A stretch of 64,000 nt of DNA from assembly GCA_014382585.1 (NCBI GenBank), contig JACNJL010000022.1, forward strand, positions 20,177-84,176, read 5' to 3'. This document shows positions 39,301-55,658 of this stretch, piece by piece. The stretch is from Limisphaerales bacterium. GTDB lineage: Bacteria > Verrucomicrobiota > Verrucomicrobiia > Limisphaerales > UBA1100. A program made the position numbers and the translations under genes. Under the pieces are notes generated by a model. That model searched no databases and had not been told where the DNA came from. It saw nothing but the letters and a program-made list of their open reading frames with translations. Numbering within the stretch: position 1 is the stretch's first letter; each line of letters starts with the position of its first letter.

Positions 39301-40091
39301 GCATCCTCGATGAAATCGTAGCGCACAAACGCACTGAACTCGCGGCCTTGCCCGAAGCGGAGGTGACTCTGGAATCGTTGCGCGTGCAAGTGGCCAGGCG
39401 TGGTGGCGTGCGGGATTTTGCCGGCGCACTGGTGCGGCCGCGCGTGGGTGATGTGGGGCTCATTGCCGAAGTGAAAAAGGCGTCGCCCTCGGCGGGCATC
39501 ATCCGCGAGGACTTTGATCCCGTGACCATTGCGCGCGAATACGAAGCGGCGGGCGCGAGTTGCCTTTCGGTGTTAACGGATGAAAAGTTTTTCCAGGGCT
39601 CGCCGGAATTTTTGAAACAAATCCGCTCGGCGGTGAACCTGCCGTTGTTGCGAAAAGATTTTGTCATCGACGAACGCCAAATCGCCGAAGCGATCGAATG
39701 GGGCGCGGATGCGGTGCTATTGATCGCGGCGATCCTCGATGACGCGCAGCTTGGACACTTTCACGCACTCGCCACGGCGGCGGGTTTGTCGGCGTTGGTG
39801 GAGGTGCACGACGACGATGAACTCGCCCGCGCGATGGCACTTAAGGCGCTGCTCATTGGCGTGAACAATCGTAACCTCAAAACATTTGAAGTGAACCTCA
39901 ACACAACCGAAGCGCTCGCTGCGCGGATGGATTTGCGGCAAACGCTGCTCGTGGCCGAAAGTGGTATTCGATCGCGCGCGGATGTGGAGCGGCTCACCGC
40001 GTGCGGGGCGCGGGCGGTGCTGGTGGGGGAATCGCTGATGCGCGAGGATGACATCGGCGCGAAGATGCGCGAATTGGGAGGGCAACAATGA
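39297..40091 (+). CDS. trpC: Indole-3-glycerol-phosphate synthase
   Basis: Closes the indole ring in tryptophan synthesis. The 264-residue TIM barrel shows MSILDEIVAHKRTEL, LIAEVKKASPSAGIIR (catalytic Lys), SVLTDEKFFQGSPEFL, LPLLRKDFVID, GVNNRNLKTFEVNL and LVAESGIRSRADV, all standard. No other trp genes adjoin it. It overlaps prfB and the next gene by ATGA, so the three genes are translationally coupled. Confidence 0.96.
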   Translation: MSILDEIVAHKRTELAALPEAEVTLESLRVQVARRGGVRDFAGALVRPRVGDVGLIAEVKKASPSAGIIREDFDPVTIAREYEAAGASCLSVLTDEKFFQGSPEFLKQIRSAVNLPLLRKDFVIDERQIAEAIEWGADAVLLIAAILDDAQLGHFHALATAAGLSALVEVHDDDELARAMALKALLIGVNNRNLKTFEVNLNTTEALAARMDLRQTLLVAESGIRSRADVERLTACGARAVLVGESLMREDDIGAKMRELGGQQ

Positions 40092-41236
40092 GTCAACCGT
40101 TGCGCGTTTTGATTATTGAAGATTCCGCGTTGGACGCGAAGGTGCTCGTGGGGTTGTTGCAAAATGGCGGTTATGAAATCGACAGCGAACGCGTGGAGAC
40201 GGGCCCGGATTTTTCAGACGCTATCCAACGCCGACCGTGGGACATTATTTTGGCCGACTACAATTTGCCGGAATTCAACGGGCCCGAGGCATTGCTGCTG
40301 TTGCAACAGAGCGAACGCGACATTCCGTTCATCGTCATTTCCGGCGGCATTGGCGAAGACTTGGCGGTGCAGATTATGAAATCCGGCGCGCATGATTACC
40401 TAATGAAAGGCAATCTCGCGCGGCTGGTGCCGGCGGTGGAACGCGAGGTGCGCGAGGCTCGCGACCGCACCCGTCATCGCCAGGCTGAGACAGCCCTGCA
40501 CGCGGCCAATGAACAGATGCGCATAGCACGCGAGATTCAGCAGCGGCTGTTTCCCGAGGAAGCGCCTCAACTGGATGGACTGGAACTGGCCGGGTTGACC
40601 GAAAGCGCGGAGCAAACGGGCGGCGACTATTACGATTTTGTGCCCATGGCCAACGGCGATTATGGGTTGGTGGTGGGCGATGTGACCGGGCACGGCATCG
40701 GGCCGGCGTTGTTAATGGCCGAGACACGGGCGTACCTGCGCATCTTGGCGGCGGATATGGATGACGTCGGCGAGATCCTCACACGCGCCAATCGCGTGCT
40801 CACTGAGGACACCGGTTCGGAACGATTTGTCACACTGCTCTTCGTGCGGCTCAGTCCCAAAACAGGCACGGTGCGCTACGCGAGTGCGGGGCATCCACCG
40901 GCGTTGTGGCTGGACGGCAGCGGGCATTTGAAACGCGAGCTCAAACGCACCGGCATCCCGCTCGGCATTCGGCCGGATACCGAGTACACCGTGAGTGAGG
41001 ATTTCCCTCTGGAACCCGGTGATCTGCTGGCGTTGATGACCGATGGCGTTGAGGAATCCACCTCTGAAGATGGCGAGATGTTTGGCAAAGAACGAATCGT
41101 GCAGACGCTGGGCACTCATCAGGTGGAAAGTGCCGCGGAGATCGTGGCGGGCCTGCATGAGGCCGGCCGATCGCATGAGGCGGCCGACCACCAGCCGGAC
41201 GACTTCACCACCATTGTGTTGAAAGTGGCCCACTGA
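40088..41236 (+). CDS. Response regulator with SpoIIE-type (PP2C) phosphatase output
   Basis: A 382-residue signalling protein. The receiver domain (about 5-120) has LIIEDSALDAK, the phospho-acceptor Asp57 in ILADYNLPEF and the Lys in HDYLMKGNL. A helical linker follows, then an RsbU/SpoIIE-type Ser/Thr phosphatase (about 160-382) with metal residues in GGDYYDFVPM, VVGDVTGHGIGPALLMA, YASAGHPPALWL, LLALMTDGVEE and the final DDFTTIVLKV. Such proteins usually act on anti-sigma-factor antagonists. The partner kinase is not nearby. The ATGA overlap with trpC suggests coordinated translation. Confidence 0.93.
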   Translation: MSQPLRVLIIEDSALDAKVLVGLLQNGGYEIDSERVETGPDFSDAIQRRPWDIILADYNLPEFNGPEALLLLQQSERDIPFIVISGGIGEDLAVQIMKSGAHDYLMKGNLARLVPAVEREVREARDRTRHRQAETALHAANEQMRIAREIQQRLFPEEAPQLDGLELAGLTESAEQTGGDYYDFVPMANGDYGLVVGDVTGHGIGPALLMAETRAYLRILAADMDDVGEILTRANRVLTEDTGSERFVTLLFVRLSPKTGTVRYASAGHPPALWLDGSGHLKRELKRTGIPLGIRPDTEYTVSEDFPLEPGDLLALMTDGVEESTSEDGEMFGKERIVQTLGTHQVESAAEIVAGLHEAGRSHEAADHQPDDFTTIVLKVAH

Positions 41237-41286: not shown

Positions 41287-41364
41287 CGGACCGTAGCGCA
41301 GCCTGGTTAGCGCGCCACACTGGGGGTGTGGAGGTCGGGAGTTCGAATCTCCCCGGTCCGACCA
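41287..41364 (+). tRNA. tRNA-Pro (anticodon GGG)
   Basis: The acceptor arm CGGACCG (41287-41293) pairs with CGGTCCG (41354-41360); D stem GCGC/GCGC; anticodon stem CCACA/TGTGG with loop CTGGGGG giving anticodon GGG; T arm with GTTCGAATCT; encoded CCA at 41362-41364. The gene is complete. Its 3' part is repeated at 51355-51405 and, decayed, at 55625-55658, so it appears to serve as an integration target. Confidence 0.95.
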
Positions 41365-41368
41365 TTTT
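41318..41368 (+). repeat. Attachment-site copy 1 (in the intact tRNA-Pro gene)
   Basis: 51 bp from the anticodon stem through the CCA to four T residues, identical to 51355-51405. Both copies continue with CTAGCT after a one-base difference in the T run. Confidence 0.9.
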
Positions 41369-41395
41369 TCTAGCTAGTTTTTTGATTTTTTTCGT

Positions 41396-41513
41396 TTTCA
41401 ACCGTTACCGTTGCGTTCTTTCGGCTATATCCTTGCCAACTCGTAATCGCTGATTACGAAAAAACATGTCCCATAAGCGAACAGAACCACCCCTGAAATC
41501 AGCAAGCTTCTGA
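41396..41513 (+). pseudogene. Decayed duplicate of the ECF sigma-factor upstream region and first codons
   Basis: TTTCAACCGTTACC at 41396-41409 matches TTTCAACCGTAACC at 42214-42227. In both copies TATAT follows at the same distance, then CCAAC, then an ATG 70 or 69 bases after the start of the match. The short frame from 41466 reads MSHKRTEPPLKS and stops at 41513; the intact sigma factor begins MPEKRPEPSFEF. It appears to be the remains of a second sigma-factor gene lost by deletion. A palindrome TCGTAATC-GCT-GATTACGA (41441-41459) lies within it. The rest of 41365-41576 shows nothing further. Confidence 0.55.
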
Positions 41514-41576
41514 AATTAGAAAAATTGCAACCTTAGCCCAGAACAGAGGACACAGGAAACCAACTAAATACACAAA

Positions 41577-42116
41577 ATGAACCAAGTATTGATTACCGCT
41601 GCCTTTATGTTCCTTTTTCACTTTCCATCTACGTTGATGGCAGAGTTTAAGGTCGAGTCAGACAAAGAAAATGTGGTCTCTAGCCGACTTGAGGGTCGAT
41701 GGCAATTCAATGAGGCCATTAGCTCCAGACTTAGAACCAGACTTCCCCTCAATCGGGATAGAGCCATGGAATTTCATGCAGATGACAAGGTTGTCGCAAA
41801 GATACCTGACAAGTATGGGAAGTTTCTGAAGAGAAAAACGATTTACATGGCGGGGATCATGAAGTCAGGAAAAAATGATTACCCATTTATTCTCACCGAA
41901 CACAAAGGTAATCCGCACATAGTCATTTTTCGTGAACGGGATGGCGATCCATTGGGTGACGCCGAATCCTTTAACGTGATGCTTGCTGTCGCGGAGAATA
42001 CTTCAAACGATCTGCTTTTTATAGGCGGTGATTTTAACAACCAGCCATTCTATGCTCTTGAGCGTGCAGAGACGCCCGAAGGTGATTCCCAACCAGGGCA
42101 TGGAGCCGTCGAATGA
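41577..42116 (+). CDS. Secreted hypothetical protein of the island
   Basis: A 179-residue protein with a signal peptide (QVLITAAFMFLFHFPSTLMA). The rest is beta-rich (IYMAGIMKSGKNDYPFILTE, HIVIFRERDGDPLGD, NDLLFIGGDFNN), and no family is recognised. It lies between the decayed and the intact copies of the sigma-factor upstream region. Confidence 0.7.
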   Translation: MNQVLITAAFMFLFHFPSTLMAEFKVESDKENVVSSRLEGRWQFNEAISSRLRTRLPLNRDRAMEFHADDKVVAKIPDKYGKFLKRKTIYMAGIMKSGKNDYPFILTEHKGNPHIVIFRERDGDPLGDAESFNVMLAVAENTSNDLLFIGGDFNNQPFYALERAETPEGDSQPGHGAVE

Positions 42117-42213
42117 CGGCACGGTTGATGTTAGAATCATGCTATGTATCATCATACCTTGTTTGGCAACACTCGCATTAGTTGATTATGGTTCACCCTT
42201 TTTCTTTTTTAGG

Positions 42214-42282
42214 TTTCAACCGTAACCAATCCACTCACCGCGGTATATAACCTGTGGCCAACCCGTATTATAACCGAAATAC
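42214..42282 (+). promoter_or_regulatory. Candidate ECF-type promoter before the sigma-factor gene
   Basis: CAACC at 42217-42221, then 22 bases, then TATATAACC (42244-42252), about 30 bases before the ATG. The same elements with the same spacing occur in the decayed copy at 41399-41430. The CAACC box resembles the AAC core of ECF -35 elements, though the spacing is longer than usual. An autoregulated promoter is an inference from this conservation. Confidence 0.4.
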
Positions 42283-42813
42283 ATGCCCGAAAAACGACCA
42301 GAGCCATCCTTCGAATTTGTTCAACTTCTGACGACTCATCAGAGCCGTATGTTTGCCTACATACTTTCACTTCTAGGTAATCGCACTCAGGCGGAGGATG
42401 TTATGCAAGAGACTAATGCGGTTCTTTGGCGTAAGGCGCATGAATTCAAACTAGGCACCAACTTTGGTGCATGGATGCTAAGGGTCGCTTATTTTCAGGT
42501 AATGGCACACCGTCGCAAGATCACACGGGATCGCCTTGTTTTCGACGATGACTTTCTCGCAGATATTGCTGATGACGCGCAGCAGCAGTCTGAGAGGTAT
42601 GAAGAAAAACAACGACTACTGGTCGACTGTATCGGGAAACTGAACGAACGTTACCAGAAACTCATCCGCCGTCGATACACCGAAGGTGCTACTCTGAAAA
42701 CTATGGCTTCTCAAAGCGATCAGTCAGAGAGTTCCATTAAACAGGCGCTTTTCAGAGCTCGCAACGCTTTGATTGAGTGCGTAAAGCGTCATCGTCCAGA
42801 GGAAGCTCTATGA
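42283..42813 (+). CDS. ECF-type RNA polymerase sigma factor
   Basis: A 176-residue sigma-70 factor of the extracytoplasmic-function type, close to the Rhodopirellula/Verrucomicrobium family. Region 2 is visible as SLLGNRTQAEDVMQETNAVL, with WMLRVAYFQVMAHRRK; region 4 as LNERYQKLIRRRYTEGATLK and SSIKQALFRARNALIECV. It overlaps the following FecR-type gene by four bases (ATGA), the usual pairing of an ECF sigma factor with a membrane partner, and probably controls the sulfatase genes downstream (inference). Confidence 0.92.
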   Translation: MPEKRPEPSFEFVQLLTTHQSRMFAYILSLLGNRTQAEDVMQETNAVLWRKAHEFKLGTNFGAWMLRVAYFQVMAHRRKITRDRLVFDDDFLADIADDAQQQSERYEEKQRLLVDCIGKLNERYQKLIRRRYTEGATLKTMASQSDQSESSIKQALFRARNALIECVKRHRPEEAL

Positions 42814-44354
42814 CGGAAGTAGAGAAAAAAGAACTGGAGTTTCTCCTCATGGAACTTACTGAGGGCCAGCTATTGCCTGAGCAAAGCCACCGGTTGGTGG
42901 AGATGATTCAACAGTATCCTGAGGCAAAAAAACAGTATCTCGAATATTGTCAGGTTCACGCAATGCTTGCATGGGAACACGGTGTCTTGGGCGTAGGCCA
43001 GTCGCCGCACTCCTCAAGTATACCCGAAATTCAGCCCAAATCCCCCAGTACATCCAAGCGATTGGTCATAGCCGCATTAGTAGCGCTGGTGGGATTAGCC
43101 TTGTGGCTGCAATGGAGGGCACCATCAAAAATGCAACCGGGGGAAACGGTTGCTTCCCTGACCCGTAGCGTGGCTGCCAATTTGAAAATATTCGGCACAT
43201 CGTCTGACTTCAGCAATGGCAGCACCATTCAAACCGGCAGTTACGATCTCGAAGAGGGCCTTGTCCAAATTACGTTTGAATCGGGTGTCGATCTCGTCAT
43301 CGAAGCACCGGCTTCTTTCGAAATTCACAGCTCCGAGTTCATGGTCTTAAACGAAGGACGCCTAGCGGTTACTGTTCCTCCGGAAGGTGTTGGCTTCACT
43401 GTGGAAACTCCAGACGCTGAAGTGGTTGATTTCGGGACAGAGTTCGCCATCGAAGTGGTGGGCGAACGTAGTAGTGAAGTTCACGTGTTCAAGGGGGAAG
43501 TTGAAGTGCGCCCGAAAGAGCAGGATGCTTCGATCTATCCGGTACGTCTGGTCGCGAATCAAGCTACCCGTATCGATCACGCGACGTTTGTTCCTCTTGG
43601 AATCTCTATAGACGATCATAGATTTCTCAGAAATCTCGAAGAGCCTGACCCAACTTACAGCGGTAAGGTTCGTGAACTCTTGCCGCTCTCTTACTATCGC
43701 ATGGCTGTCATCGACGATGGGCAAACTTTGAAGGATACGGCTAAAGGTCATCAAAATACTGCTTCAATAGTGAAAGGTGAAGGGCGGCGACAACCATTCG
43801 CTCCGGGCCGCATCGGTTCATCCCTTCGTTTGGATGGGCCCAAAAGGGGAGGGTATGCACAAGTCTTTTCCGGCTTCGAACTCCCGACAACAGAATTCAC
43901 CATCATGGCGTGGATCCGTGCCATGACCCTGCCAAGGAACGCTATTCTCGTCTCAGACATGAATCTTATGGGCGACGAAACATTTCGCTTTGGGCTAGTT
44001 GGCGATCATGGGAATTTGGGTCTCACTCTCGCCAATGGAAAGCGATCTCTGCGGATTGAGGATTCCTCTCCCTTGCCCCTCGAAGATTGGACCCATGTCG
44101 CCATCGTAAAGGAGAGTGTAGGTTTGCGGCTGTACCGAAATGGAGTGCTCGTCTCCTCGGAACCTTTAAATGGGTTTAAAGTAAAAGCGCACAAGCCTTT
44201 CAGTATCGGGGGAACCGATAAGAAGGCCGACGGAATAAAAAGGCATCAAAGACAGGGCTTCTGGCATGGTCGAATCGACGAACTTGCCTTCTTTGGGTAC
44301 GCCCTAACGGACGAGCAAATCGAAAATCTTTTTCACCTTACCCCATCCAATTAA
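42810..44354 (+). CDS. FecR-domain membrane protein with C-terminal LamG domain
   Basis: A 514-residue protein. A cytoplasmic helical N-terminus (about 1-75), in the place of an anti-sigma region, is followed by one membrane helix (about 80-99, VIAALVALVGLALWLQW). A FecR domain spans about 150-265 (DLVIEAPASFEIHSSEFMVL; VETPDAEVVDFGTEFAI; SEVHVFKGEVEV). A LamG/concanavalin domain spans about 325-505 (TEFTIMAWIRAM; WTHVAIVKESVGLRLYRNG; GRIDELAFFGYALTDEQI). It likely senses or binds a glycan outside the cell and controls the coupled sigma factor; this is inference from the layout. Confidence 0.88.
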   Translation: MTEVEKKELEFLLMELTEGQLLPEQSHRLVEMIQQYPEAKKQYLEYCQVHAMLAWEHGVLGVGQSPHSSSIPEIQPKSPSTSKRLVIAALVALVGLALWLQWRAPSKMQPGETVASLTRSVAANLKIFGTSSDFSNGSTIQTGSYDLEEGLVQITFESGVDLVIEAPASFEIHSSEFMVLNEGRLAVTVPPEGVGFTVETPDAEVVDFGTEFAIEVVGERSSEVHVFKGEVEVRPKEQDASIYPVRLVANQATRIDHATFVPLGISIDDHRFLRNLEEPDPTYSGKVRELLPLSYYRMAVIDDGQTLKDTAKGHQNTASIVKGEGRRQPFAPGRIGSSLRLDGPKRGGYAQVFSGFELPTTEFTIMAWIRAMTLPRNAILVSDMNLMGDETFRFGLVGDHGNLGLTLANGKRSLRIEDSSPLPLEDWTHVAIVKESVGLRLYRNGVLVSSEPLNGFKVKAHKPFSIGGTDKKADGIKRHQRQGFWHGRIDELAFFGYALTDEQIENLFHLTPSN

Positions 44355-44366
44355 ATCCTAATAATT

Positions 44367-45788
44367 ATGAGACTTTTGAAAGCACTACATGCAATAACCC
44401 TCAGTTTGATCGGAATGCCCTTCTTTGTATTGGCAGACGAAAAACCAAATATCGTTATTATTCTCACAGATGACCAAGGCTATGCTGATGTTAGTTATAA
44501 TCCCCATTCTCCACCGGAAGTCAGTACGCCTAACATTGATGCCCTCGCTCATTCTTCCGTCATCTGTACCCAGGGTTACACCAGTGGGCACGTATGTTCC
44601 CCGACGCGTGCCGGACTCATGACTGGTCGTTATCAGCAAAGATTTGGAATATACACAGCTGGGGAAGGGGGCTCAGGTGTTCCACTTAATGAGGTGTTTA
44701 TTCCACAGCGACTCAAGCCAGCTGGATATGTTTCTGGGGCATTAGGTAAGTGGCATCTAGGGCTCACTAAAGAATATCACGCCATGAATCGTGGGTTCGA
44801 TGAGTTCTATGGGTTTATGGGACGTGGAGCCCATCCATACTTTGACCACTCAGACATGACTCATCCAATTTATCGCGGTTTTAAACCCATAAAAGAAGAG
44901 GGTTATCTCACTACTCGAATCACTGAGGAAGCTGTCGACTTTATCAGCCGCCATAAAAAAGAGCATTTCTTTCTCTATGTTGCATATAACGCTGTGCACT
45001 CTCCGCCTGAGGCCCCTAAAGAGGACATCAAGAACCTTACGGGTGACGAGAAGCGCGATACTCTCATGGCCATGATCAAACACCTCGATATGGGGGTTGG
45101 GGAGATTGTGGAATCATTAAAAAAACACGACATCTATGATAATACGCTTTTGATATTTCTTACGGACAATGGTGGCTCCAATGCCATGAGCGCTAACAAT
45201 GCCCCACTTCGGGGCTTTAAGCAGATGGACTACGAAGGAGGGGTTCATGTCCCGTTCATCGTTTCTTGGCCGGCTCAATTGAAAGGCGTAAAAAAGTGCG
45301 ACGTTCCCATGTGGTCGATTGATTTGTTTGCGACTGCACTAGACGCTGCCGGGCTTCCTTTACCGAGAGATAAACCTCTGGACGGAAAAAGCATCCTGCC
45401 TGCTCTCAAGGGCAAAACAGACAAACTTCACGACGCATTCTATTGGAGTTCCGGTGGAGCTAAAGGGAAATGGGCTATACGTTCAGGAGATTGGAAGCTG
45501 GTCGCTGATAAGAAACGCATTGAACTTTTCAATCTTGATAAAGATCTCAGTGAAACGACAGACCTTGCGGCAAAACACCCTAAATTGGTTTCTGAACTCA
45601 CGGATAAATATAACGAATGGCTCGACAAAATGGCAGATCCGGTGAGCAAGCAGGAGAAATTTTGGAATCCTGATGCCGGTAGGTCAGGAATAAATATGTC
45701 AAAAGAAGAAAAGAAAGCGGCGCGCGAAAAAGAAAAAGCCAATCGCATCAAGGAACGAGAAGCAAAAAATAATCGATCAACTGAATAA
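44367..45788 (+). CDS. Secreted sulfatase (arylsulfatase type)
   Basis: A 473-residue type I sulfatase with a signal peptide. The metal site begins NIVIILTDDQGYAD (Asp35, Asp36). The formylglycine motif is Cys77-SPTR with AGLMTGRYQQRFG after it. LGKWHLGLTKEYHAMNRGFD and LLIFLTDNGGSN are further family blocks. It needs conversion of Cys77 to formylglycine by a maturase not found in this window. The C-terminus is a run of charged residues (EEKKAAREKEKANRIKEREA), also seen on the next sulfatase. It probably removes sulfate from a polysaccharide. Confidence 0.93.
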   Translation: MRLLKALHAITLSLIGMPFFVLADEKPNIVIILTDDQGYADVSYNPHSPPEVSTPNIDALAHSSVICTQGYTSGHVCSPTRAGLMTGRYQQRFGIYTAGEGGSGVPLNEVFIPQRLKPAGYVSGALGKWHLGLTKEYHAMNRGFDEFYGFMGRGAHPYFDHSDMTHPIYRGFKPIKEEGYLTTRITEEAVDFISRHKKEHFFLYVAYNAVHSPPEAPKEDIKNLTGDEKRDTLMAMIKHLDMGVGEIVESLKKHDIYDNTLLIFLTDNGGSNAMSANNAPLRGFKQMDYEGGVHVPFIVSWPAQLKGVKKCDVPMWSIDLFATALDAAGLPLPRDKPLDGKSILPALKGKTDKLHDAFYWSSGGAKGKWAIRSGDWKLVADKKRIELFNLDKDLSETTDLAAKHPKLVSELTDKYNEWLDKMADPVSKQEKFWNPDAGRSGINMSKEEKKAAREKEKANRIKEREAKNNRSTE

Positions 45789-45828
45789 TCTGAATGATTC
45801 GTCAAAATTCTTTTAGGAACAAATTACC

Positions 45829-47601
45829 ATGAAAACCATTATTTCACTTTCGATTTTTTGTTTGTTGGGGAACCTATCTCCTGCAGCCCAATCTCAGCGC
45901 CCGAATATAATCATGTTTCTGATCGACGATCAGAACCCATCGAGTATCGCCGCATTTGGAGGCGATACCTACACTCCCAATCTCGACCGTATGGCTCAGG
46001 AAGGAATGAAGTTCACTCGTGCCTATGTCAGCAGTTCGGTTTGCACTCCTTCTCGATACAGTTTCCTAACCGGCCGATATGCTGGTAACTCACACAGTAA
46101 GCTTTACGTTGATGCGGTCGGTGGCAAAGAAAATCAGGGGCTTCCCAACTTCAATGTCGCCCTAGAGCGCGACAACATGAACGTCGGGAATGTTCTTCGT
46201 GAAGCCGGTTATGCTACCGGTTTTGTTGGGAAATTTCACCTCACCTCCAACTTGGATTTTCCGGAGTTCTATAAAGGGAAAGACAAATGGATCAATATTC
46301 CTAAAAACGCGCGTCCTGGGCCAGAGACATCGGCTCAATTCAAGCGCAACGAACGTTGGATGCGCCGTTACCTAAAGGAACTTGGCTTTTCTTGGGCGAA
46401 GAACGTCTATCCGGAAAATACACCCTCGCCCTATTCTACGCATAACCCGGAGTGGACAACGGTGGCCGCTCTTGAATTCATTGAAGAGAACAAGGATGGG
46501 CCCTTTTACCTCCATCTTTGCAGTACCCTGTTGCACGGGCCGGATAAATCCTGGCGAAAATCCATGGATCATCCGCTTATCACCGGAGAGGGGGAAGTTG
46601 AAAGCCTTCCAGAGATAATGACACCGCGTATTGAGTTACTCAAAATTATCAAGGAAAAGGGATTCGACCCCGAAAGTCATGTGGCCGGTGAAGCGTGGAT
46701 CGATGATTCACTCGGAGCGATTCTTCGTAAACTGAAGGAGCTTGGAATCGATGACAACACGCTGGTGATCTTTGCGCCGGATCACGGTCGTGACGGCAAA
46801 GCATCCGTTTTTTCACAGGGTAGTTGTCAGGTGCCCATGATCATGCGTTGGCCGAAAGGAATTGCCGCAGGGCAGGTGTGTGAAGAACTCGTTCAGAATA
46901 TCGACCTCGTGCCTACTTTCTTCGAACTGGGTGAAGCGGTAAAACCGGAGTCTTACCGAATCGATGGGCAAAGTCTCACCCCTCTTTTCAAAAACGGAAC
47001 AGACAAAGATTGGCGGAATCACCTTTATCTCGAAATGGGAGCTGCTCGGGCAACTGTCACGAAAGATTGGTCCTACATTGCCGTTCGCTACACGAAAGAG
47101 CAAATCGGAGCGATCAAGAGAGCCGCGCCGCAAAACTTACCCAAAGCCATGTCCTACATTGGACGTCTGGGCATCGGAGTAAGGGGGGCCGACCGCCCGG
47201 GTTTCTTTGACGAAGATCAGCTCTACCATCTGAAGACAGATCCGAAAGAGATGAGGAATCTTGCGGGTCATATAGGGCATTCCAGTCGCGTGAAAGAGAT
47301 GCGCCAAAAGATGCAGCAGGATCTCCAAGCCATAGGTCGCCCTTTCGGTGAGTTCATTCCCGGAGGGAACGCCGCTAAGCCGGGGCAGGTCAGTAAACAA
47401 ATAAAAATCGTTAAACAGCTCGAGATCAAAGGCAAAACAGTAACGGTACCGGAAGCGTTGAAACAGGATATAGACGTTACCGATGAACCACCCCATGTCG
47501 ATAAGGCTAAAAGAAAAGCGGAACGTGAAACACGTAGAAACGCCCGTGAAGAAGCCAAGAAGAAGGTGAGAGAAAAGGACAAAGATGGCGAAACGGAGTA
47601 G
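45829..47601 (+). CDS. Secreted sulfatase (iduronate/choline-sulfatase-like)
   Basis: A 590-residue type I sulfatase with a signal peptide. Seen: NIIMFLIDDQNPSSIAAFGG (Asp33, Asp34), the formylglycine motif Cys72-TPSR in SSSVCTPSRYSFLTGRYAGN, VGKFHLTSN, and LVIFAPDHGRDGK. The C-terminal 60 residues are highly charged (KAKRKAERETRRNAREEAKK), likely helical and outside the catalytic fold. It lies 40 bp after the first sulfatase, on the same strand; different substrate positions are likely given their low mutual similarity. Confidence 0.93.
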   Translation: MKTIISLSIFCLLGNLSPAAQSQRPNIIMFLIDDQNPSSIAAFGGDTYTPNLDRMAQEGMKFTRAYVSSSVCTPSRYSFLTGRYAGNSHSKLYVDAVGGKENQGLPNFNVALERDNMNVGNVLREAGYATGFVGKFHLTSNLDFPEFYKGKDKWINIPKNARPGPETSAQFKRNERWMRRYLKELGFSWAKNVYPENTPSPYSTHNPEWTTVAALEFIEENKDGPFYLHLCSTLLHGPDKSWRKSMDHPLITGEGEVESLPEIMTPRIELLKIIKEKGFDPESHVAGEAWIDDSLGAILRKLKELGIDDNTLVIFAPDHGRDGKASVFSQGSCQVPMIMRWPKGIAAGQVCEELVQNIDLVPTFFELGEAVKPESYRIDGQSLTPLFKNGTDKDWRNHLYLEMGAARATVTKDWSYIAVRYTKEQIGAIKRAAPQNLPKAMSYIGRLGIGVRGADRPGFFDEDQLYHLKTDPKEMRNLAGHIGHSSRVKEMRQKMQQDLQAIGRPFGEFIPGGNAAKPGQVSKQIKIVKQLEIKGKTVTVPEALKQDIDVTDEPPHVDKAKRKAERETRRNAREEAKKKVREKDKDGETE

Positions 47602-47763
47602 AGAGCTAAAAATCTAACTCATAAAATGAGCCTCGTCATATGTTATGCATGATATTTGAATCTTTAGTGCTGATATAAGGTCCCTTTAGCTTCTCTGAAT
47701 TAAAATCTTGCGGTAGGGTTTTCTCAGGTAATTTTCCGGTGTTGAATGGCAAATTGAGTCTTA

Positions 47764-49908
47764 ATGAAGATACATATTGATAGGAATGGTGAAAGATTTG
47801 GGCCTTACAGCATAGAAGAAACAAATGCTTATTTGGCAAACGGCACACTACTTCCTTCAGATCTGGCTTGGAAAGATGGCATGACGAATTGGTTGCCGGT
47901 TCAACAGATTTCCGGCGTGGTGGTTGCCACAGGTTCTGTGGCAACATCTGTTCTTCCTTCGCAATCCGTGTCGATTGGAAACAAAAAAAATATTCTCCAA
48001 GGAATTGCTGCCGTGGTGGGACTGTTGGCTATTGGGATTGGAATTTGGGTTTTCTTTTTCCGAGCCACAGAAGAGAAGAAGCAGTTTGCAAACAATGATG
48101 GAGGTAATATTCCGGTCGCAAAGTCAGTTGAAGAAACAACGAAGGAAACGGCTGGCACGGCCTCAAGAATTGACACAATTATCCAGCTTGATCTTACAAA
48201 ACACGGGCTTAAACCGAATCCGCCGGCCAGTGATGTTGAGTTCGTCCGCCGCCTGTATCTGGATGTGATTGGCCGAATTCCGACCGGTGATGAACTTAAA
48301 CGCTTCCACGCAGACACTCGTGAAGACCGTAGGGCTAGGTTGATTGATGAATTGCTTAAGTCTCCCGGTCATGAATCCCACATGTTCAACTGGCTAGCGG
48401 ACATGCTTCGTGTGAAAGATGATTATTACCGGATTGGTAAGACTTGGACGTTTCATACATGGCTGAAATCACAACTCCGTGAGAACAGGCCGTGGGATGA
48501 ACTTGTCCATGACATGCTAACTGCAGAAGGTCGGTTGGGAGAAAATGGGGCCACCGCATACCTCTTGCGCGACGCAAGTATGCCGTTGGATAGCCTTTCC
48601 AACACGCTGACTATTTTTCTTGGTGCAAATATTGGCTGTGCTCAGTGTCATGACCATCCCCTTGCTGAATGGACTCAACGTGACTTTTATGAAATGGCGG
48701 CATTTTTCGGCTCGACGACCTTTGAGCGTGTGGATACACGCAAGCCGGCAATAACTCTCCGTGATGAACGTTTCTCAAAAGCGAATCTTGTCACTTTACT
48801 TCAACCGAATATGGAGCGAGTCGTATTCGATAACACCATTTCGACTGTATTCCCTGAGGACTACTCGTATGACGACGCCAAACCCGGCGACTTGGTTAGC
48901 CCACGATTTATCAATTGGGGGCCTGAAAAGGAAATGCCTCTGGCGGGACATCGGCCGAAACGGCTCCGAAATCATTTCGCGGACTGGATGACGTCATCTG
49001 AGAATCCGCGCTTTGCCGCGGCTATTGCCAATCGATTATGGAAGAAGTTTTTTGGAATTGCGGTCAAAGAGCCGGTTACAGATCTCGATGTTCTCGAAAA
49101 CGCCACTAATCCGGAACTACTTCGGTTCATCGCACAGTTGATGAAGGATGTTGATTTTGACCTGCGAAAATTTCAGCGAGTAATTCTAAATACTAGCGCA
49201 TATCAGCAGCAGGTCAGCGTGACGCCGCTTGAGGGTGAGGCTTTCCGATTCCCTGGTCCTTTATTACGTCGAATGACAGCTGAGCAGGCGTGGGATTCTA
49301 TTGTTCTCCTGTTGCGAGGCCCGGAGATTGATCAGTTGAAGACAGATAATGCGCCTTTGATGAAGCGACTAGTTTTTCCCTTTGAATTCACACACGACAA
49401 GAAGGATATTTTGAGCGATCGCGAGAAGATCTTCAACTTTGCAGAGACACTATTGCCGAAAGGTGAGGCTTCGAATGGTGATGGCGGGCGCGGCTTATTC
49501 ATGGGGTCTAGTAAGGGGCGGCGCGTAAAACTGCGCGGTGAGAATTCGTGGTTGCGGGCTTCAGAACTACCACAACCAATGCCCCCAACACATTTTCTAA
49601 GAGTCGCAGGTCAGTCAGCTCGTGATGTTGCTGATGACGGATCGACCGAGGGCGGTATTACCGAATCGTTGGCGATGATGAACGGCGAAGTCACGAAAAG
49701 TATTATGACCAGCTCGTTGGTTATCAACGCCGCGAGTAGCAAGAACAGCCAGCCTGAGCAGATCGCTCTCCTCTATCGTGCATGCCTGTCACGGTCTCCG
49801 CGTGAGAAGGACACGAAACAGTGTGTTATTGCACTCGAACAAGGACTTGAACTGAGTGACATAGTCTGGGCTCTGTTGAATTCCCGCGAGTTTATGTTTA
49901 TTCAATAG
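47764..49908 (+). CDS. GYF-domain membrane protein fused to DUF1549/DUF1553 cytochrome
   Basis: A 714-residue protein. Residues 1-55 form a GYF_2 domain (GERFGPYSIEETNAYLANG; DLAWKDGMTNWLPV), which is cytoplasmic. One membrane helix follows (about 76-99). Residues about 135-355 are DUF1549 (PSCyt2-type) with the heme-like motif CAQCH at 292-296 (GANIGCAQCHDHPLAEWTQRDF). The remainder is DUF1553 (NHFADWMTSSENPRFAAAIANRLW; RRMTAEQAWDSIVLLLRG). DUF1549/1553 proteins are Planctomycetes/Verrucomicrobia-typical and usually pair with DUF1501, as here. Their function is unproven. A GYF head is unusual. Confidence 0.9.
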   Translation: MKIHIDRNGERFGPYSIEETNAYLANGTLLPSDLAWKDGMTNWLPVQQISGVVVATGSVATSVLPSQSVSIGNKKNILQGIAAVVGLLAIGIGIWVFFFRATEEKKQFANNDGGNIPVAKSVEETTKETAGTASRIDTIIQLDLTKHGLKPNPPASDVEFVRRLYLDVIGRIPTGDELKRFHADTREDRRARLIDELLKSPGHESHMFNWLADMLRVKDDYYRIGKTWTFHTWLKSQLRENRPWDELVHDMLTAEGRLGENGATAYLLRDASMPLDSLSNTLTIFLGANIGCAQCHDHPLAEWTQRDFYEMAAFFGSTTFERVDTRKPAITLRDERFSKANLVTLLQPNMERVVFDNTISTVFPEDYSYDDAKPGDLVSPRFINWGPEKEMPLAGHRPKRLRNHFADWMTSSENPRFAAAIANRLWKKFFGIAVKEPVTDLDVLENATNPELLRFIAQLMKDVDFDLRKFQRVILNTSAYQQQVSVTPLEGEAFRFPGPLLRRMTAEQAWDSIVLLLRGPEIDQLKTDNAPLMKRLVFPFEFTHDKKDILSDREKIFNFAETLLPKGEASNGDGGRGLFMGSSKGRRVKLRGENSWLRASELPQPMPPTHFLRVAGQSARDVADDGSTEGGITESLAMMNGEVTKSIMTSSLVINAASSKNSQPEQIALLYRACLSRSPREKDTKQCVIALEQGLELSDIVWALLNSREFMFIQ

Positions 49909-49958
49909 ACTGTAACCCTATTTAATTTACCGCATTTCATTTATAAGGACGCCCCAAC

Positions 49959-51233
49959 ATGAAGCAACTTTTAAACTCTTTAGATGCACCGACTCGTCGA
50001 CAGTTCGTCGAACGCTGTGCCGCGACTTCACTCGGCTTGAGGATCCTTCCAACGGCACACCTAATGGCTGAAGAGTCAGCAGGAGCAAAGCCTGCCGCCT
50101 TTGGTAAAGCGAAGAGCGTAATTTGGCTAATGCTCAATGGCGGTCTAAGTCACATTGACTCGCTGGACCCAAAACAAGGTAAATCTAAAGGTCCGGCAAA
50201 GGCGATTAACACGTCCGGGAACTTTCAGGTCACCGAATATTTCCCGAAATTCGCGGCGGTCGCAAATCGTGTAAGCGTGATTCGCTCTATGGAAGCAAAG
50301 ATCGGCATCCATTCACCAGCACAATACTACATGCGAACCGCTTATGAACCTCGCGGAACGATTATACACCCAAATTTAGGAGCCTGGGGCTCTCACTACC
50401 TAGGGCGTAGTAGTAAAAATTTGCCGTCAAGTGTGTGCGTCAATCGCCGTTCCGATCAAGGTAATGGCTTCTTCCCTTCGAGCTTTGCCCCACTTGCTAT
50501 CGGAGATCCGACCAAAGGGATCAGTGACGTTGAATCGATCGGTGGTAAGTCAGTGGCCACAAAGCGACAGGCATTGTTAAACAAAATCGATGCCGACTTT
50601 CGGAGAAAATTCAATGATAAGGGGGTTAATTCTTATAAAGGTTTCTACGATGATGCCCTAGCCTTAATGAAGAGTAAGGAATTGAAAGCTTTTGACTTGG
50701 CGGATGAGTCAGAAAAACAACGGGAGACCTATGGTAATAATTCATTCGGTCAGGGATGCTTGCTCGCTCGTCGCCTAGTTGGATCCGGTGTCCGTTTTGT
50801 TGAGGTGAAGCACGATGGCTGGGATCATCACAAAGCACTTGCCGATGAGATGAGTGAAGTGGCGCCGGTATTTGACCAGGCATTCGCAACACTGATTACT
50901 GACCTTGAGCAGCGAGGGATGCTGGATTCCACGCTGGTCGTTGTTGCGACAGAATTTGGTCGTAAACCGGCATTCGATGGTGATGGACGAAGTCATCACC
51001 CTGTTTGCTTTTCAACGGTTCTCGCTGGAGGAGGCACAAAGGCTGGGTTTGTCTATGGCAAGAGTGACGATATGGGATACTACGTTGACGAAAATGCCGT
51101 TTCTGTTGGAGCATTTCACGCCAGCATCGCATTCGCAGCTGGTATGGAAATTGGGAAACCCGCCACGTCGCCTTCTGGGCGACCCATGACTGTCGGTGAC
51201 GGCGAAAAGCCTATCCTGGAGTTATTCGCGTGA
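49959..51233 (+). CDS. DUF1501 protein of the island
   Basis: A 424-residue DUF1501 protein, paired with the DUF1549/DUF1553 gene 50 bp upstream, the standard arrangement. Blocks: KSVIWLMLNGGLSHIDSLDP, VTEYFPKFAAVANRVSVIRS, GVRFVEVKHDGWDHHKAL, TLVVVATEFGRKP and DGRSHHPVCFSTVLAGGGTK. The leader (PTRRQFVERCAATSLGL) is Tat-like but lacks a strong hydrophobic stretch. It is only distantly similar to the DUF1501 protein at 13403-14767. Confidence 0.9.
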   Translation: MKQLLNSLDAPTRRQFVERCAATSLGLRILPTAHLMAEESAGAKPAAFGKAKSVIWLMLNGGLSHIDSLDPKQGKSKGPAKAINTSGNFQVTEYFPKFAAVANRVSVIRSMEAKIGIHSPAQYYMRTAYEPRGTIIHPNLGAWGSHYLGRSSKNLPSSVCVNRRSDQGNGFFPSSFAPLAIGDPTKGISDVESIGGKSVATKRQALLNKIDADFRRKFNDKGVNSYKGFYDDALALMKSKELKAFDLADESEKQRETYGNNSFGQGCLLARRLVGSGVRFVEVKHDGWDHHKALADEMSEVAPVFDQAFATLITDLEQRGMLDSTLVVVATEFGRKPAFDGDGRSHHPVCFSTVLAGGGTKAGFVYGKSDDMGYYVDENAVSVGAFHASIAFAAGMEIGKPATSPSGRPMTVGDGEKPILELFA

Positions 51234-51354
51234 TGACTAAAGTGTCAGTTTTAATTTTCCTATAAAACACTGAAGAGTTTTTCGGGCCAAAGGTGGATCG
51301 ATAAAAATCCAATAATAGCGCTGAAAAAACAGGGTTATAATTCGTAGTCTCCCG

Positions 51355-51405
51355 CACTGGGGGTGTGGAGGTCGGGAGTTCGAATCTCCCCGGTCCGACC
51401 ATTTT
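51355..51405 (+). repeat. Attachment-site copy 2: 3' part of tRNA-Pro
   Basis: An exact 51-bp copy of 41318-41368, from the anticodon stem through CCA. Upstream of the match the sequence no longer pairs as a tRNA, so this is a fragment and not a gene. It marks the right end of the 10-kb island. Confidence 0.9.
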
Positions 51406-51590
51406 CTAGCTCTGTATTCGTGGGCGGTTAAATTATTTCGTCAAATTTGGCGCCGACTCCATTCCGATTGAGCGTCACATGTGTGGGAGACCGTACGTGT
51501 TTTGTTCCAAAAGGTATTTGGTTTGGATTGTCCGAATGTGGCTGTTACAAATTTCGAACGCGACCAATCCCTAACGATCTCAACGCAAAT

Positions 51591-52544
51591 TTGAAATTCA
51601 CGTTTCTTCTTCCCATCGTACTCATTTCAGGCCTCGCGGTTGGCGCATGGACGCATCAGACTGATAAACTTGCCTCAACTCCCCAAACAGTGCCTGGGCT
51701 GTTGGCTGCGTTGAATCTCACCGATGACCAGAAGGCAGGTTTCCAAGCACAGGAACGAAAGAAGCAGAGACCTTCAGGTAATAATCAGCCTAAGCCCGAG
51801 GTGAACCTGCCGATCATTAAAGTTCCGGTCACGCCCGTCGTGGGCCCGCCTCCCGCCAGTCGTTTCAATCTAAAGAACTGGAAACTGACGTTGCCCTACA
51901 ACAAGGCTGGCAACTACGGTGGTCACGCCGCCGAGATTGGGGCAAAACAACTGGTCGCCGGATTCAAGGATCCGCATTTCTACACCGACGCCAACGGCAC
52001 AATGATTTTCTGGTGTCCTGTAATCGGTTCAACGACTGGCAACACCAAGTTCCCTCGCAGTGAACTGCGCGAAATGCTTGAGCCCGGAAACGTCGGTCGT
52101 AATTGGGACAGTACCGGGACGCACCAACTCGAAGGACGCTGTCGCCTGCTCCAAGTCCCTAGTTACCCCAAAGTCGTAATCGGACAGATCCATAGCTATA
52201 CCGGCAAATCGAAACCTCTGGTAAAGCTCCAATACTACAAAGGCCGCATGGAAGCTCTCGTCAAGCTCAGCCCCTTCGCCGGCAAGGACAAATTGATCAA
52301 GTTTGCCGATGTGGGCCTAAACAACGACATTGCCTGGCAGATCCAGCTCAAGGATGCCGTGCTCTCCGTAACCGTGAACGGCGTGACCCAAACCGAAAAC
52401 ATGCTCACGCACGATCCCCGATGGGCCGAGCAGACTTTCTACTTCAAGGCCGGGGCCTACCCGCAAGACGACACGGGTGATGTTACCGAAGGCGCTCGCG
52501 TGGCTTTCAGCCAACTGAATGCGAGCCATAACCAGAAACCCTAG
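51591..52544 (+). CDS. Polysaccharide lyase family 7 (alginate lyase-like)
   Basis: A secreted protein of about 317 residues. The lyase domain shows the three PL7 signatures: RSELREML (the R-S/T-E-L-R box), QIHSY (the QIH box) and YFKAGAYPQ (the YFKAG box), in the right order. PL7 enzymes split alginate and related uronans by beta-elimination. The likely start is the TTG at 51591, which begins a signal peptide (LKFTFLLPIVLISGLAVGA); an ATG at 51447 would add 48 residues that do not look coding. A linker of about 70 residues (TVPGLLAALNLTDDQKAGFQ) precedes the lyase domain. Confidence 0.88.
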   Translation: MKFTFLLPIVLISGLAVGAWTHQTDKLASTPQTVPGLLAALNLTDDQKAGFQAQERKKQRPSGNNQPKPEVNLPIIKVPVTPVVGPPPASRFNLKNWKLTLPYNKAGNYGGHAAEIGAKQLVAGFKDPHFYTDANGTMIFWCPVIGSTTGNTKFPRSELREMLEPGNVGRNWDSTGTHQLEGRCRLLQVPSYPKVVIGQIHSYTGKSKPLVKLQYYKGRMEALVKLSPFAGKDKLIKFADVGLNNDIAWQIQLKDAVLSVTVNGVTQTENMLTHDPRWAEQTFYFKAGAYPQDDTGDVTEGARVAFSQLNASHNQKP

Positions 52545-52554
52545 AGTCAGAGAA

Positions 52555-54000
52555 ATGCCATCGATGATTCGCGCGCGCCATCTAGCTTATCTTTTCCTTT
52601 TGGCCCTTGTCTCTCCCGCCATCAGCGATGAGGCGCCCCGGCCTCACATCGTCCTCATCATGTCGGACGATCAGGGCTGGGGGCAGGTGGGTTACATGAA
52701 CCATCCGCATCTGAAGGGGAATACTCCGAATCTGGATGCGATGGCGAAGTCCGGCATTCGGTTCAATCGATTCTATGCGGCCGCCTCAGTGTGCTCGCCG
52801 ACGCGCGCCTCGGTTTTGACGGGGCGTTCGCCGCATCGCACCGGGGTTCCCGGTCTGCACAAGCGCCTTTGCTTGCAGGAAAAGACCCTGCCTGCTGCTC
52901 TAAAAAAAGCGGGCTACGCCACCGCCCACTTTGGTAAATGGCATTTGGGAGGGGTTCAGGGTTCGGCCATGCCGGTTCTTCCGGATGACCCGAACGGCCC
53001 CAAGCATTATGGCTTTGATGAATGGTTATCGGCGACCAACTACATCGAAATGAATCCGTTGATGACGCACAATGGTGAGATCGTTTATCTCGAAGGCGAA
53101 TCTTCCGTGTTGATGGTGGAAGCAGGGCTGACGTTTATTGAGGCCAATAAGGAAAAGCCGACCTTCACGGTGCTTTGGTATGGCTCGCCGCACTTTCCTT
53201 ATACCGCGCTGGAGCAGGATTTGCAGGGGTTGCCGAAGGACATGGATGGAAGGCAGCGAAGTCTGTTGGGTGAGATTGTTGCCCTGGATCGGAGCATCGG
53301 CATGCTTCGCAACCGGTTGCGCGAGTTGGATTTGGCCAAGAACACGTTGATCTGGTTTTGCAGTGACAATGGAGGGCGCGACCATGAACCCCATGCGATG
53401 GCGGGTCTGCGTGGGGCCAAAGGCAATTTGTATGAAGGCGGTATTCGCGTGCCGGGATTGATCGAATGGCCGGGCACGATTCAGCCGCAGGTGACGGATT
53501 TCCCGGCATCCACGATGGACATCATGCCGACTCTGATGGACCTCCTTGACCTGCCGAAGGACTCGATGCTGGAAGTCGTCGACGGCGAAAGCATCGTTCC
53601 GTTGTTTACCGGCACCACACCGAAACGCGCTCGCCCGATACCCATTAAAAACAAAGGAATGGCATTGCTGGAGGGGCGTTACAAGATCGTGAGGAATGGA
53701 AATGGCAAAGGGATTCCATGGGAGCTTTTTGATCTGAAAACCGATCTGGGGGAAACCACCAACTTGGCGGCTGAACAACCCGAGCGTTTTGAACAGATGA
53801 AAGCAGAGGCGCTCGCCGTTGAGGCTTCCATCGACAACAGTGCGCTGGGGCGGGACTATCCGGAGGGGAAGGTGCTGCAGCCTCAACGTTCGGAGAGGTG
53901 GGAACAAATGGAAGCGTACCAAGCGCTTTATGAGAAGTTCGCTGAGCTAAAGCCCGGATGGAAGGCGCCTGTCCAGAAATCAAAAAAGGAGAAACGGTAA
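52555..54000 (+). CDS. Secreted sulfatase
   Basis: A 481-residue type I sulfatase with a signal peptide ([19 protein letters not shown]). Seen: [17 protein letters not shown] (Asp38, Asp39), the formylglycine motif Cys80-[12 protein letters not shown] and [17 protein letters not shown]. The ending QKSKKEKR is again basic. The nucleotide composition is closer to the chromosomal genes than that of the two sulfatases at 44.4-47.6 kb. Its TAA overlaps the ATG of the truncated sulfatase. I chose the ATG at 52555; earlier in-frame starts overlap the lyase gene. Confidence 0.92.
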
Positions 54001-54320
54001 TGAAATCACTGACAAAACTATTCTATGCCATCCTCGTCTTCGGCCCATTGCTCAGTGCGCCGAGCAGCCAGGCCGGCGAGCGGATGAATCTGCTGGTGCT
54101 CATGGCCGATGATCTAAATACGTGGATACTGGAAAAGCCGGAACGGTACTCGGGAAAAGTGATCGCTCCGAATCTTCAGGCGTTCGGTGACAGCGGAGTG
54201 GTGTTTCGAAATGCCTACAGCGCGTCGCCGTTTTGTGTGCCTTCACGCACGTCGCTTTGGTCGGGGGTGAGGCGGGTGAGGGAGTTTTGTGAACCGGTGT
54301 CGTTTGTTGTGGGTGAATAA
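54000..54320 (+). pseudogene. 3'-truncated sulfatase
   Basis: Begins as a normal sulfatase: signal peptide, then [12 protein letters not shown] (Asp37, Asp38) and the formylglycine motif Cys79-VPSR in [16 protein letters not shown], close to iduronate-2-sulfatase types. After about residue 88 the sequence is no longer sulfatase-like and stops at 106 residues instead of about 450-500. The break is near 54265. It cannot be active. It overlaps the preceding sulfatase stop by TAATG. Confidence 0.85.
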
Positions 54321-54361
54321 ACAGGGGTGCGATCCGGTCATCGGTGAACGTCTAACGGGGA

Positions 54362-54535
54362 ATGAAGACCGGTAAATTCAAACGAGGGTGATACCACAAG
54401 CTCCTCGTCCACGGTTACGCCGTCTGCATCGACCACAAGACCAAGGAGATCAAGTTCCGCGACCCGTACCCGTTCATGGCAAAGACACTGGTGGCCGCTT
54501 ATTTGGCTGAGGAGGGTTTTCTCAGGGAGGGGTGA
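54362..54535 (+). pseudogene. Small gene with an internal TGA
   Basis: The frame from the ATG at 54362 reads MKTGKFKRG, then TGA at 54389-54391, then YHKLLVHGYAVCIDHKTK and on to LAAYLAEEGFLREG-like residues before TGA at 54533-54535. A single base change (TGG to TGA) would explain the break. No family recognised. From 54536 to 54701 I see nothing else. Confidence 0.45.
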
Positions 54536-54701
54536 TTATTTGATGCGCCGACGGACCCACAAAACGGCATAAAATTGGCTGTGGTTAGTAAATGGTTCCC
54601 ACCCTTGAGGTATCAACCACACGCCGCGGCCTGTGTTCCTTTACCGCCCTTTTTGGCTGAGGCCCGCAACCCAGAAACAAATTCATCTGAGCCGAGGGCG
54701 G

Positions 54702-55217
54702 CTACTCTCTGTGGCGGGTTTCTCCTGTTAATCTGCCCTTTGAATCGTATGTGTAAACGATTTTTCCCCAGCGCTTGTTTTTCTTAACATAACCAACATC
54801 GCGCGCGGTCAATCCGGTGGTCAGGGTGTGAGCATATTCAACTCTTTCAATTACAAGCGGCTTGCCGTTCTCGTCGGAAAGATTTTTGTGGTATTTGCAT
54901 TCAAAAATTTTCATTTCACGCCGGAACCAATCAGGTCGGTCTTCCATCGGTCTGCCGTCGCGAATGACTGTCTCACTTGTGAGGCGGGCATTCTCATCAA
55001 ATCTAGAAATCAAAATCATTCCACGTGTGTCTAAAAATCCACGCGTGTGAAATGGCTTACGTGTCTCCCTGACTACTCCATTTGAATCTTTCCCCTCTGA
55101 CTTTTCTTCATTCCAAATCAATTCAGGCGTTGTTGAACACCCAGAAATTACTGCTGCACATATGGTTGAGGTGAACAGTGCGCCAATGATGAGGGATTTA
55201 ACGTCGATGTTTTTCAT
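54702..55217 (-). CDS. Small lipoprotein, function unknown
   Basis: A 171-residue protein with a lipoprotein signal (IIGALFTSTICAAVISGCST, lipobox ISGC). The mature part is charged and has YTYDSKGRLTGETRHRE at the end, resembling a single RHS/YD-type repeat or MORN-like toxin-immunity strand pattern; this is weak. It is the only minus-strand gene in the 41-64 kb region other than the partial gene at the window end. Confidence 0.65.
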   Translation of the reverse strand: MKNIDVKSLIIGALFTSTICAAVISGCSTTPELIWNEEKSEGKDSNGVVRETRKPFHTRGFLDTRGMILISRFDENARLTSETVIRDGRPMEDRPDWFRREMKIFECKYHKNLSDENGKPLVIERVEYAHTLTTGLTARDVGYVKKNKRWGKIVYTYDSKGRLTGETRHRE

Positions 55218-55367
55218 AAAAAACCCATTCTCGCCCCGCGAACATTTGTCAATATTAATTCAGCGCGGGAGATAGAAGAACGACGGCTCGCCCTGTGGAC
55301 AAGCGGGGATGAAACCGATGCAACTTCCACCTGATTCTTTCCTTTAACGGGATCATAATGGTGTCTA

Positions 55368-55571
55368 ATGGAAATCATTGTGCGCGAAGAAGAAGATGGA
55401 AAACACAGACTCTACACCCGAACCCCGGCAGGAACGAACCGAGCAGGCAACCGACTCAAAAAAGGCGGAGAGTATCCGATTGAGTCCTACGTCTACGATA
55501 CCCACGAAGCTGCAACAACCTTTGCCCGACTTAACGCCCTATTTTGTGGCTACTTGTGGTGCGTCCTGTAA
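55368..55571 (+). CDS. Short open frame of uncertain coding value
   Basis: 67 codons (MEIIVREEEDGKHRLYTRT ... THEAATTFARLNAL). An alternative frame from 55378 also stays open to 55671 through the decayed attachment site, so neither is certain. No family recognised. It might be the remains of an island gene. The rest of 55218-55792 contains an inverted repeat (55546-55605), attachment copy 3 and otherwise nothing I can identify. Confidence 0.25.
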   Translation: MEIIVREEEDGKHRLYTRTPAGTNRAGNRLKKGGEYPIESYVYDTHEAATTFARLNALFCGYLWCVL

Positions 55572-55605
55572 ACAAAACCCCAGTAAAGTGGCCACAAGTA
55601 ACCAC
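55546..55605. repeat. Inverted repeat beside attachment copy 3
   Basis: GTGGCTACTTGTGG (55546-55559) and CCACAAGTAACCAC (55592-55605) are inverted with one mismatch in 14. They lie 20 bp from the decayed tRNA-Pro fragment, a place where recombinase arm or core sites can occur; that role is speculative. Confidence 0.5.
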
Positions 55606-55624
55606 AAGAGACTGCGCCCTGCAA

Positions 55625-55658
55625 ACTGGGGGTGTGGAGGTCGAGGGTTCGGCCATTT
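55625..55658 (+). repeat. Attachment-site copy 3: decayed tRNA-Pro fragment
   Basis: ACTGGGGGTGTGGAGGTCG (55625-55643) is identical to the tRNA-Pro anticodon-to-variable region; it continues AGGGTTCG-GCCATTT where the tRNA has GGAGTTCG, then loses about 14 bases before GACCATTT. It is a mutated and internally deleted copy. Confidence 0.65.

Follow-up and report, generated by a model that had tools for sequence, protein, structure and literature searches.

A probable remnant of a second ECF sigma factor module and a conserved promoter in a tRNA-Pro island of a Limisphaerales bacterium

The window, i.e., the whole stretch of 64,000 nucleotides analysed here, contains an island next to a tRNA-Pro gene in which an intact gene for an ECF sigma factor is followed by genes for a FecR protein, two sulfatases, a PSCyt2/PSD1 protein and a DUF1501 protein (Table 1). 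With 157.4 bits against a curated cut-off of 124.55 bits the sigma factor is a member of the TIGR02989 family, and its 176 amino acids comprise regions 2 and 4 only (Sigma70_r2 at 15-81, Sigma70_r4_2 at 111-163). The FecR gene overlaps the sigma gene. Repeats of the tRNA 3' end, which add to the initial annotation of this DNA, bound the island, and the chromosome of the window's own genus picks up again at about 55724. In G012, the tRNA leads directly into sequence like that past the right repeat of the window, resembling an empty site over about 50 bases. None of the scanned reading frames of the window codes for an integrase or tyrosine recombinase, and the genome, in which the window lies on contig C22, encodes just two PF00589 proteins, located on contigs C17 and C38.

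Table 1. Features at the tRNA-Pro island, in coordinates of the window
Feature	Position	Strand	Basis
Crossover zone in the response-regulator/SpoIIE gene 40088-41236; own-genus left, other-genus right	40361..40399	.	
tRNA-Pro (GGG), left island border	41287..41364	+	ARAGORN
tRNA 3' end, left copy of 51-base repeat	41318..41368	+	sequence comparison
Remnant -35-type box, CAACCGTTACC	41399..41409	+	conserved box pattern
Remnant -10-type box, TATAT	41426..41430	+	conserved box pattern
Sigma gene remnant, 15 codons then stop, MSHKRTEPPLKSASF	41466..41513	+	alignment, G016 comparison
Intact gene, 179 aa, rare family, signal-peptide-like start by eye	41577..42116	+	ORF, relatives
Intact sigma -35-type box, CAACCGTAACC	42217..42227	+	conserved box pattern
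Intact sigma -10-type box, TATAT	42244..42248	+	conserved box pattern
Intact ECF sigma factor, TIGR02989 (gvs1) family	42283..42813	+	profile match
FecR protein with LamG-like (Laminin_G_3) domain, presumed anti-sigma factor	42810..44354	+	domain match
Two sulfatase genes (44367-45788, 45829-47601)	44367..47601	+	domain match
PSCyt2/PSD1 gene	47764..49908	+	domain match
DUF1501 gene	49959..51233	+	domain match
Second, exact 51-base tRNA-Pro 3'-end copy, right border of sigma cassette	51355..51405	+	
Third, partial tRNA-Pro 3'-end copy	55622..55651	+	

Fragments of the tRNA-Pro(GGG) 3' end flank short cargo cassettes of variable content and order across the genus (41318-55651 in the window, 6015-9978 in L084, 78-1927 in L087, 8216-10075 in L085 and 4287-4367 in L088), and no integrase was seen in these cassettes. 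One of them, with a ceramidase-like gene, lies directly at the tRNA in G001 and between fragments in G005 and G006. In the second cassette of the window, a frame of 120 codons (53958-54320) matches only the first 62 of the 301 positions of the sulfatase model and looks like a broken sulfatase gene.

Between the tRNA and the intact sigma gene lies a second, decayed version of the start of such a gene. TTTCAACCGT-T-ACC begins at 41396 and TTTCAACCGT-A-ACC at 42214, TATAT follows 30 bases after the start of the box in both copies (16 bases past ACC and 22 past TTTCAACC), and the ATG stands 70 bases from the box start in the upper and 69 in the lower copy, which confirms the duplicated layout of box, TATAT and start codon described in the initial annotation. 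The matching span (41387-41515 versus 42205-42337) extends beyond the ATG to about codon 16, some 50 bases into the frame, where the remnant reads MSHKRTEPPLKSASF-stop and the intact gene MPEKRPEPSFEFVQLLTTH (also given as MPEKRPEPSFEFVQLL). No remainder of the lost sigma gene past codon 16 was found in 41465-42210 (tblastn, best E 0.32). Aligned locally, the two regions score 43, as against a mean of 17.8 and a maximum of 32 in 2000 pairs of dinucleotide-preserving shuffles, none of which reached 43; under an alternative scoring scheme the score is 33 and the shuffle maximum 19, again with none of 2000 reaching it. Unrelated stretches of the window do not approach this similarity, the next best score being 26. 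The same arrangement, with the remnant at the same place and its boxes unchanged, is found in G016, a genome of the same family and another genus, where it is known from one 3.5-kb contig (3552 bases) of a bin and where the frame, MSRKRTEPPSEMHKLLN-stop, is kept to codon 17.

Among genomes scanned at one per species, 49 relatives of the sigma factor were found, of which 14 (L098-L111) are 77-97% identical to it and the others at most 57%. The records of the close relatives are labelled as groups of Verrucomicrobiota or Planctomycetota, save for one labelled just 'Bacterium'; L099 and L100 come from the same bin, and L098 corresponds to contig C146 of G016, with which it agrees in length (3552 bases) and in the position of the match. 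In a protein tree of 18 rows each phylum occupies one side of a weakly supported branch (66/90), a tree that neither shows nor excludes transfer, and an exchange of sigma genes between phyla is not claimed. Leaving aside L098, which is similar throughout, 9 of 13 loci become homologous to the window (blastn) at -67 to -93 and the 4 others at -6 to -13, and the homology runs on through FecR and sulfatase genes whose order varies among loci.

In front of these genes, the pattern CNACCRTWACC, 16-17 bases, TATAW is present in 13 of the 15 close homologues (the window and the 14 relatives), and L104 and L109 depart from its first box solely within the first three positions. The boxes stand 31-60 bases upstream of the start in all 15 loci; the second box reads TATAT in 14 of them and TATAA in L102. 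Mean pairwise identity over 14 loci (91 pairs, with L098 omitted as a near copy) is highest in the two boxes, at 0.86 for the first and 0.90 for TATAWnn. It is 0.60 across the initial 12 bases of the spacer, 0.58 when taken over the four-fold sites of the sigma gene, 0.47 over the 18 bases that precede the first box, and 0.25-0.27 farther upstream. These values are biased upward for the boxes, which were placed by a pattern derived from the same sequences; a free alignment reveals the same islands of conservation. Because both boxes occur at similar spacing in all 15 close homologues and are conserved well above four-fold sites, the suggestion in the initial annotation that the shared elements form a conserved promoter is supported for the close sigma subgroup. 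The boxes are missing upstream of the more distant relatives (at most 57% identity) in the printed upstream sequences as read by eye. Four of the more distant sigma genes (L011, L022, L031 and L034) have upstream, again by eye, another common word, TGTCCA, and a variable stretch after it, which is perhaps the promoter of another sigma subgroup. In L109 (Stieleria tagensis), the sigma start region is tandemly duplicated about 60 bases before 10001 (25 bases by eye), so that the first ATG is out of frame.

When run against 14 whole genomes, the strict pattern ACCRTWACC-N16/17-TATAW, which the sigma promoters of L104 and L109 escape, gave 20 matches: 13 sigma promoters, the 2 remnants, one site on contig C38 of the window genome, ahead of a gene that is oriented divergently to a related sigma gene, and 4 others, of which 2 lie within long reading frames and 2 overlap short ones only. 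As the reversed pattern gives 10 matches in the same genomes, isolated matches away from sigma genes carry no meaning. A longer pattern, searched in 98 related genomes, has two matches each in the window genome and in G016 and none elsewhere. Judged by these counts, each genome effectively has one such promoter, ahead of the sigma operon, as would be expected if the operon regulates itself and few targets lie elsewhere. Related sigma factors may read similar sites, as is suggested by a CCGTAACC box followed by a run of TATA at a gene that points away from a related ECF/FecR pair in G000, G010, G014 and G016 (L039 6476, L042 4841, L043 2103, L044 4085); this gene may be a target of the paired sigma factor beyond its own operon.

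The remnant is now followed by an intact gene of a rare family (41577-42116), likewise an addition to the initial annotation, which has no match in Pfam or NCBIfam and for which structure prediction is poor (mean pLDDT 44.7). It is present in 2 of the 20 genomes of the family, those of the window and G016. Among 387 genomes sampled across the phylum, 2 more carry relatives of 47-53% identity, one of which has an internal stop codon. An alternative reading of the upper copy is that it still works as a second sigma promoter although its own sigma gene is dead, having been captured by gene 41577-42116 after the old gene was deleted in the course of module replacement. In line with such a capture, the gene starts 111 bases past the ATG of the remnant, both genomes have kept it intact (dN 0.057, dS 0.154), and no difference between them falls within the two boxes. 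However, 5 of the 71 sites in the promoter stretch of the remnant and 43 of the 467 in the chromosomal flank differ between the two genomes, so that no extra constraint is visible, and neither the boxes nor a sigma gene of the close subgroup are found in the 14 kb surrounding each of the two distant relatives. A capture is conceivable though rather doubtful; if it did occur, the incoming sigma factor would have gained a second target, and the regulon of the island would have grown through module recombination.

With respect to the origin of the upper copy, a tandem duplication of the neighbouring sigma start inside the island with subsequent decay would fit the same orientation of the two copies and their distance of only 818 bases. 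Yet the remnant resembles sigma genes in other genomes more than the adjacent one: it scores 65 with L100, 56 with L106, 51 with L103, 50 with L110 and 45 with L108 and L099, as against 43 with its own neighbour as well as with L101 and 40 to 28 with the remaining six loci. The remnant of G016 scores 56 with L100, 51 with L099 and only 32 with its own neighbour (L098). These comparisons make a local duplication improbable and support the view that the upper copy, which the initial annotation had taken for the remnant of a lost sigma module on account of its promoter and start, is the trace of an independent module and not a recent copy. No complete copy of the lost module was seen at the tRNA-Pro site. 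Finally, a chance likeness of two T-rich upstream regions, for which only the run of T opening both copies speaks, is refuted and of practically negligible probability, given that no shuffle reached the observed score under either scoring, that the box pattern is rare in whole genomes and that the alignments of the remnant with homologues score still higher.

The surroundings of the tRNA form a mosaic. To its left, three own-genus genomes share 89-94% identity with the window in the genes for release factor and indole-glycerol-phosphate synthase, and other-genus genomes 71-85%; the response-regulator/SpoIIE gene is 92-93% identical to its counterparts in G014 and G016, 83-85% to those of three more genomes of that genus and 76% to that of the own genus. 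Informative sites before 40340 comprise 45 of own-genus, 3 of other-genus and 2 of neither type, those from 40340 to 40699 10, 44 and 6, respectively. Between the window and G016, dS declines from 1.76 in the own-genus part of the response-regulator/SpoIIE gene to 0.44 in the remainder of that gene and 0.13-0.19 in gene 41577-42116, and reaches 0.05 in the sigma gene and 0.06 in the first 62 FecR codons; raw differences number 43 in 453 positions at 41396-41850 but 28 in 1145 at 41851-42995 (Fisher's exact test, p 8e-9). The sigma module is thus the least diverged part between two genomes with a common arrangement, and the steps in divergence can be read as layers of different age with the sigma module as the youngest. 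The synthase gene on the G016 contig is of the other-genus type (76% to the window), so the contig is not just a misplaced fragment from the genus of the window. Recombination at this site is supported by these data, and with it the replacement proposed in the initial annotation; its form differs from the exchange near the sigma gene envisaged there, as the one crossover detected lies in a gene to the left of the tRNA.

Taken together, the data show a sigma gene remnant, conserved promoter boxes, a mosaic around the tRNA and repeats of the tRNA 3' end, and the initial annotation is correct as to the sequence and for the most part as to its interpretation. We consider it likely that the upper copy stems from a second mobile module and that modules are swapped at the tRNA-Pro site. 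The stretch 41396-41515 would represent the left end (promoter, leader and 15-17 initial codons) of another, independent module of the mobile ECF-sigma/FecR-LamG/sulfatase type, which once may have stood directly behind the tRNA-Pro gene and the remainder of which would have been lost by deletion or replacement, leaving the remnant in front of gene 41577-42116 and of the present module, which starts at about 42205. The boxes would most likely be read by the sigma factor itself and the sigma gene would thus be autoregulated: upon a signal, which we infer to be a polysaccharide, the FecR/LamG protein would release the sigma factor, and RNA polymerase would start at CNACCGTAACC-N16/17-TATAT and transcribe the sigma, anti-sigma and sulfatase genes. 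Modules would arrive, and be swapped, through recombination at the tRNA-Pro site, the order of events being the one that we infer from the present arrangement. Since the promoter of the remnant is common to relatives from two phyla, the island appears to keep the trace of repeated module exchange. The promoter consensus for one subgroup of sulfatase-cluster sigma factors in Verrucomicrobiota and Planctomycetota would make their targets predictable, and an exchange of a whole control-plus-enzyme module may here have been caught at a tRNA site with the remnant of the earlier module still present.

The locus exemplifies, in well-preserved form, a type of system that is already known, the control of sulfatase genes by an ECF/FecR pair. 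In its membership of TIGR02989 (Sig-70_gvs1, the Rhodopirellula/Verrucomicrobium family), a model for which a full-text search, with subscription papers mostly outside it, found no mention in the literature, the intact gene differs in nothing; the promoter consensus covers one close subgroup of this family (at least 77% identity) and was unseen before its distant relatives. As in tycheposons and additive tRNA islands, repeats of a tRNA 3' end bound a variable cargo (41318-41368 equals 51355-51405 over 51 bases), and a passage of PMC10872708 describes islands of Methylophilaceae in front of which the final 20 bases of tRNA-Lys are repeated; unlike in tycheposons, an own tyrosine recombinase was not seen in the cassette. 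The overlap of the ECF sigma gene with a FecR-domain gene recalls FecI/FecR pairs, from which the locus differs by the LamG-like domain on the FecR protein and the sulfatases downstream. According to passages of PMC8103513, FecI-like factors are exceptions to autoregulation, whereas here a promoter stands before the sigma gene. The same passages characterise classical ECF sigma factors by the presence of regions 2 and 4 only, an anti-sigma factor in the same transcript, positive autoregulation, and promoters with AAC in the -35 and CGT in the -10 box, and add that such rules no longer define ECFs. If the first box is the -35 element, AAC is present, GTAACC being found in 14 of the 15 intact copies and GTTACC in L105; accordingly, the locus agrees with the classical type in the two regions and the AAC of the -35 box, and departs from it in a -10 box that reads TATAT and not CGT.
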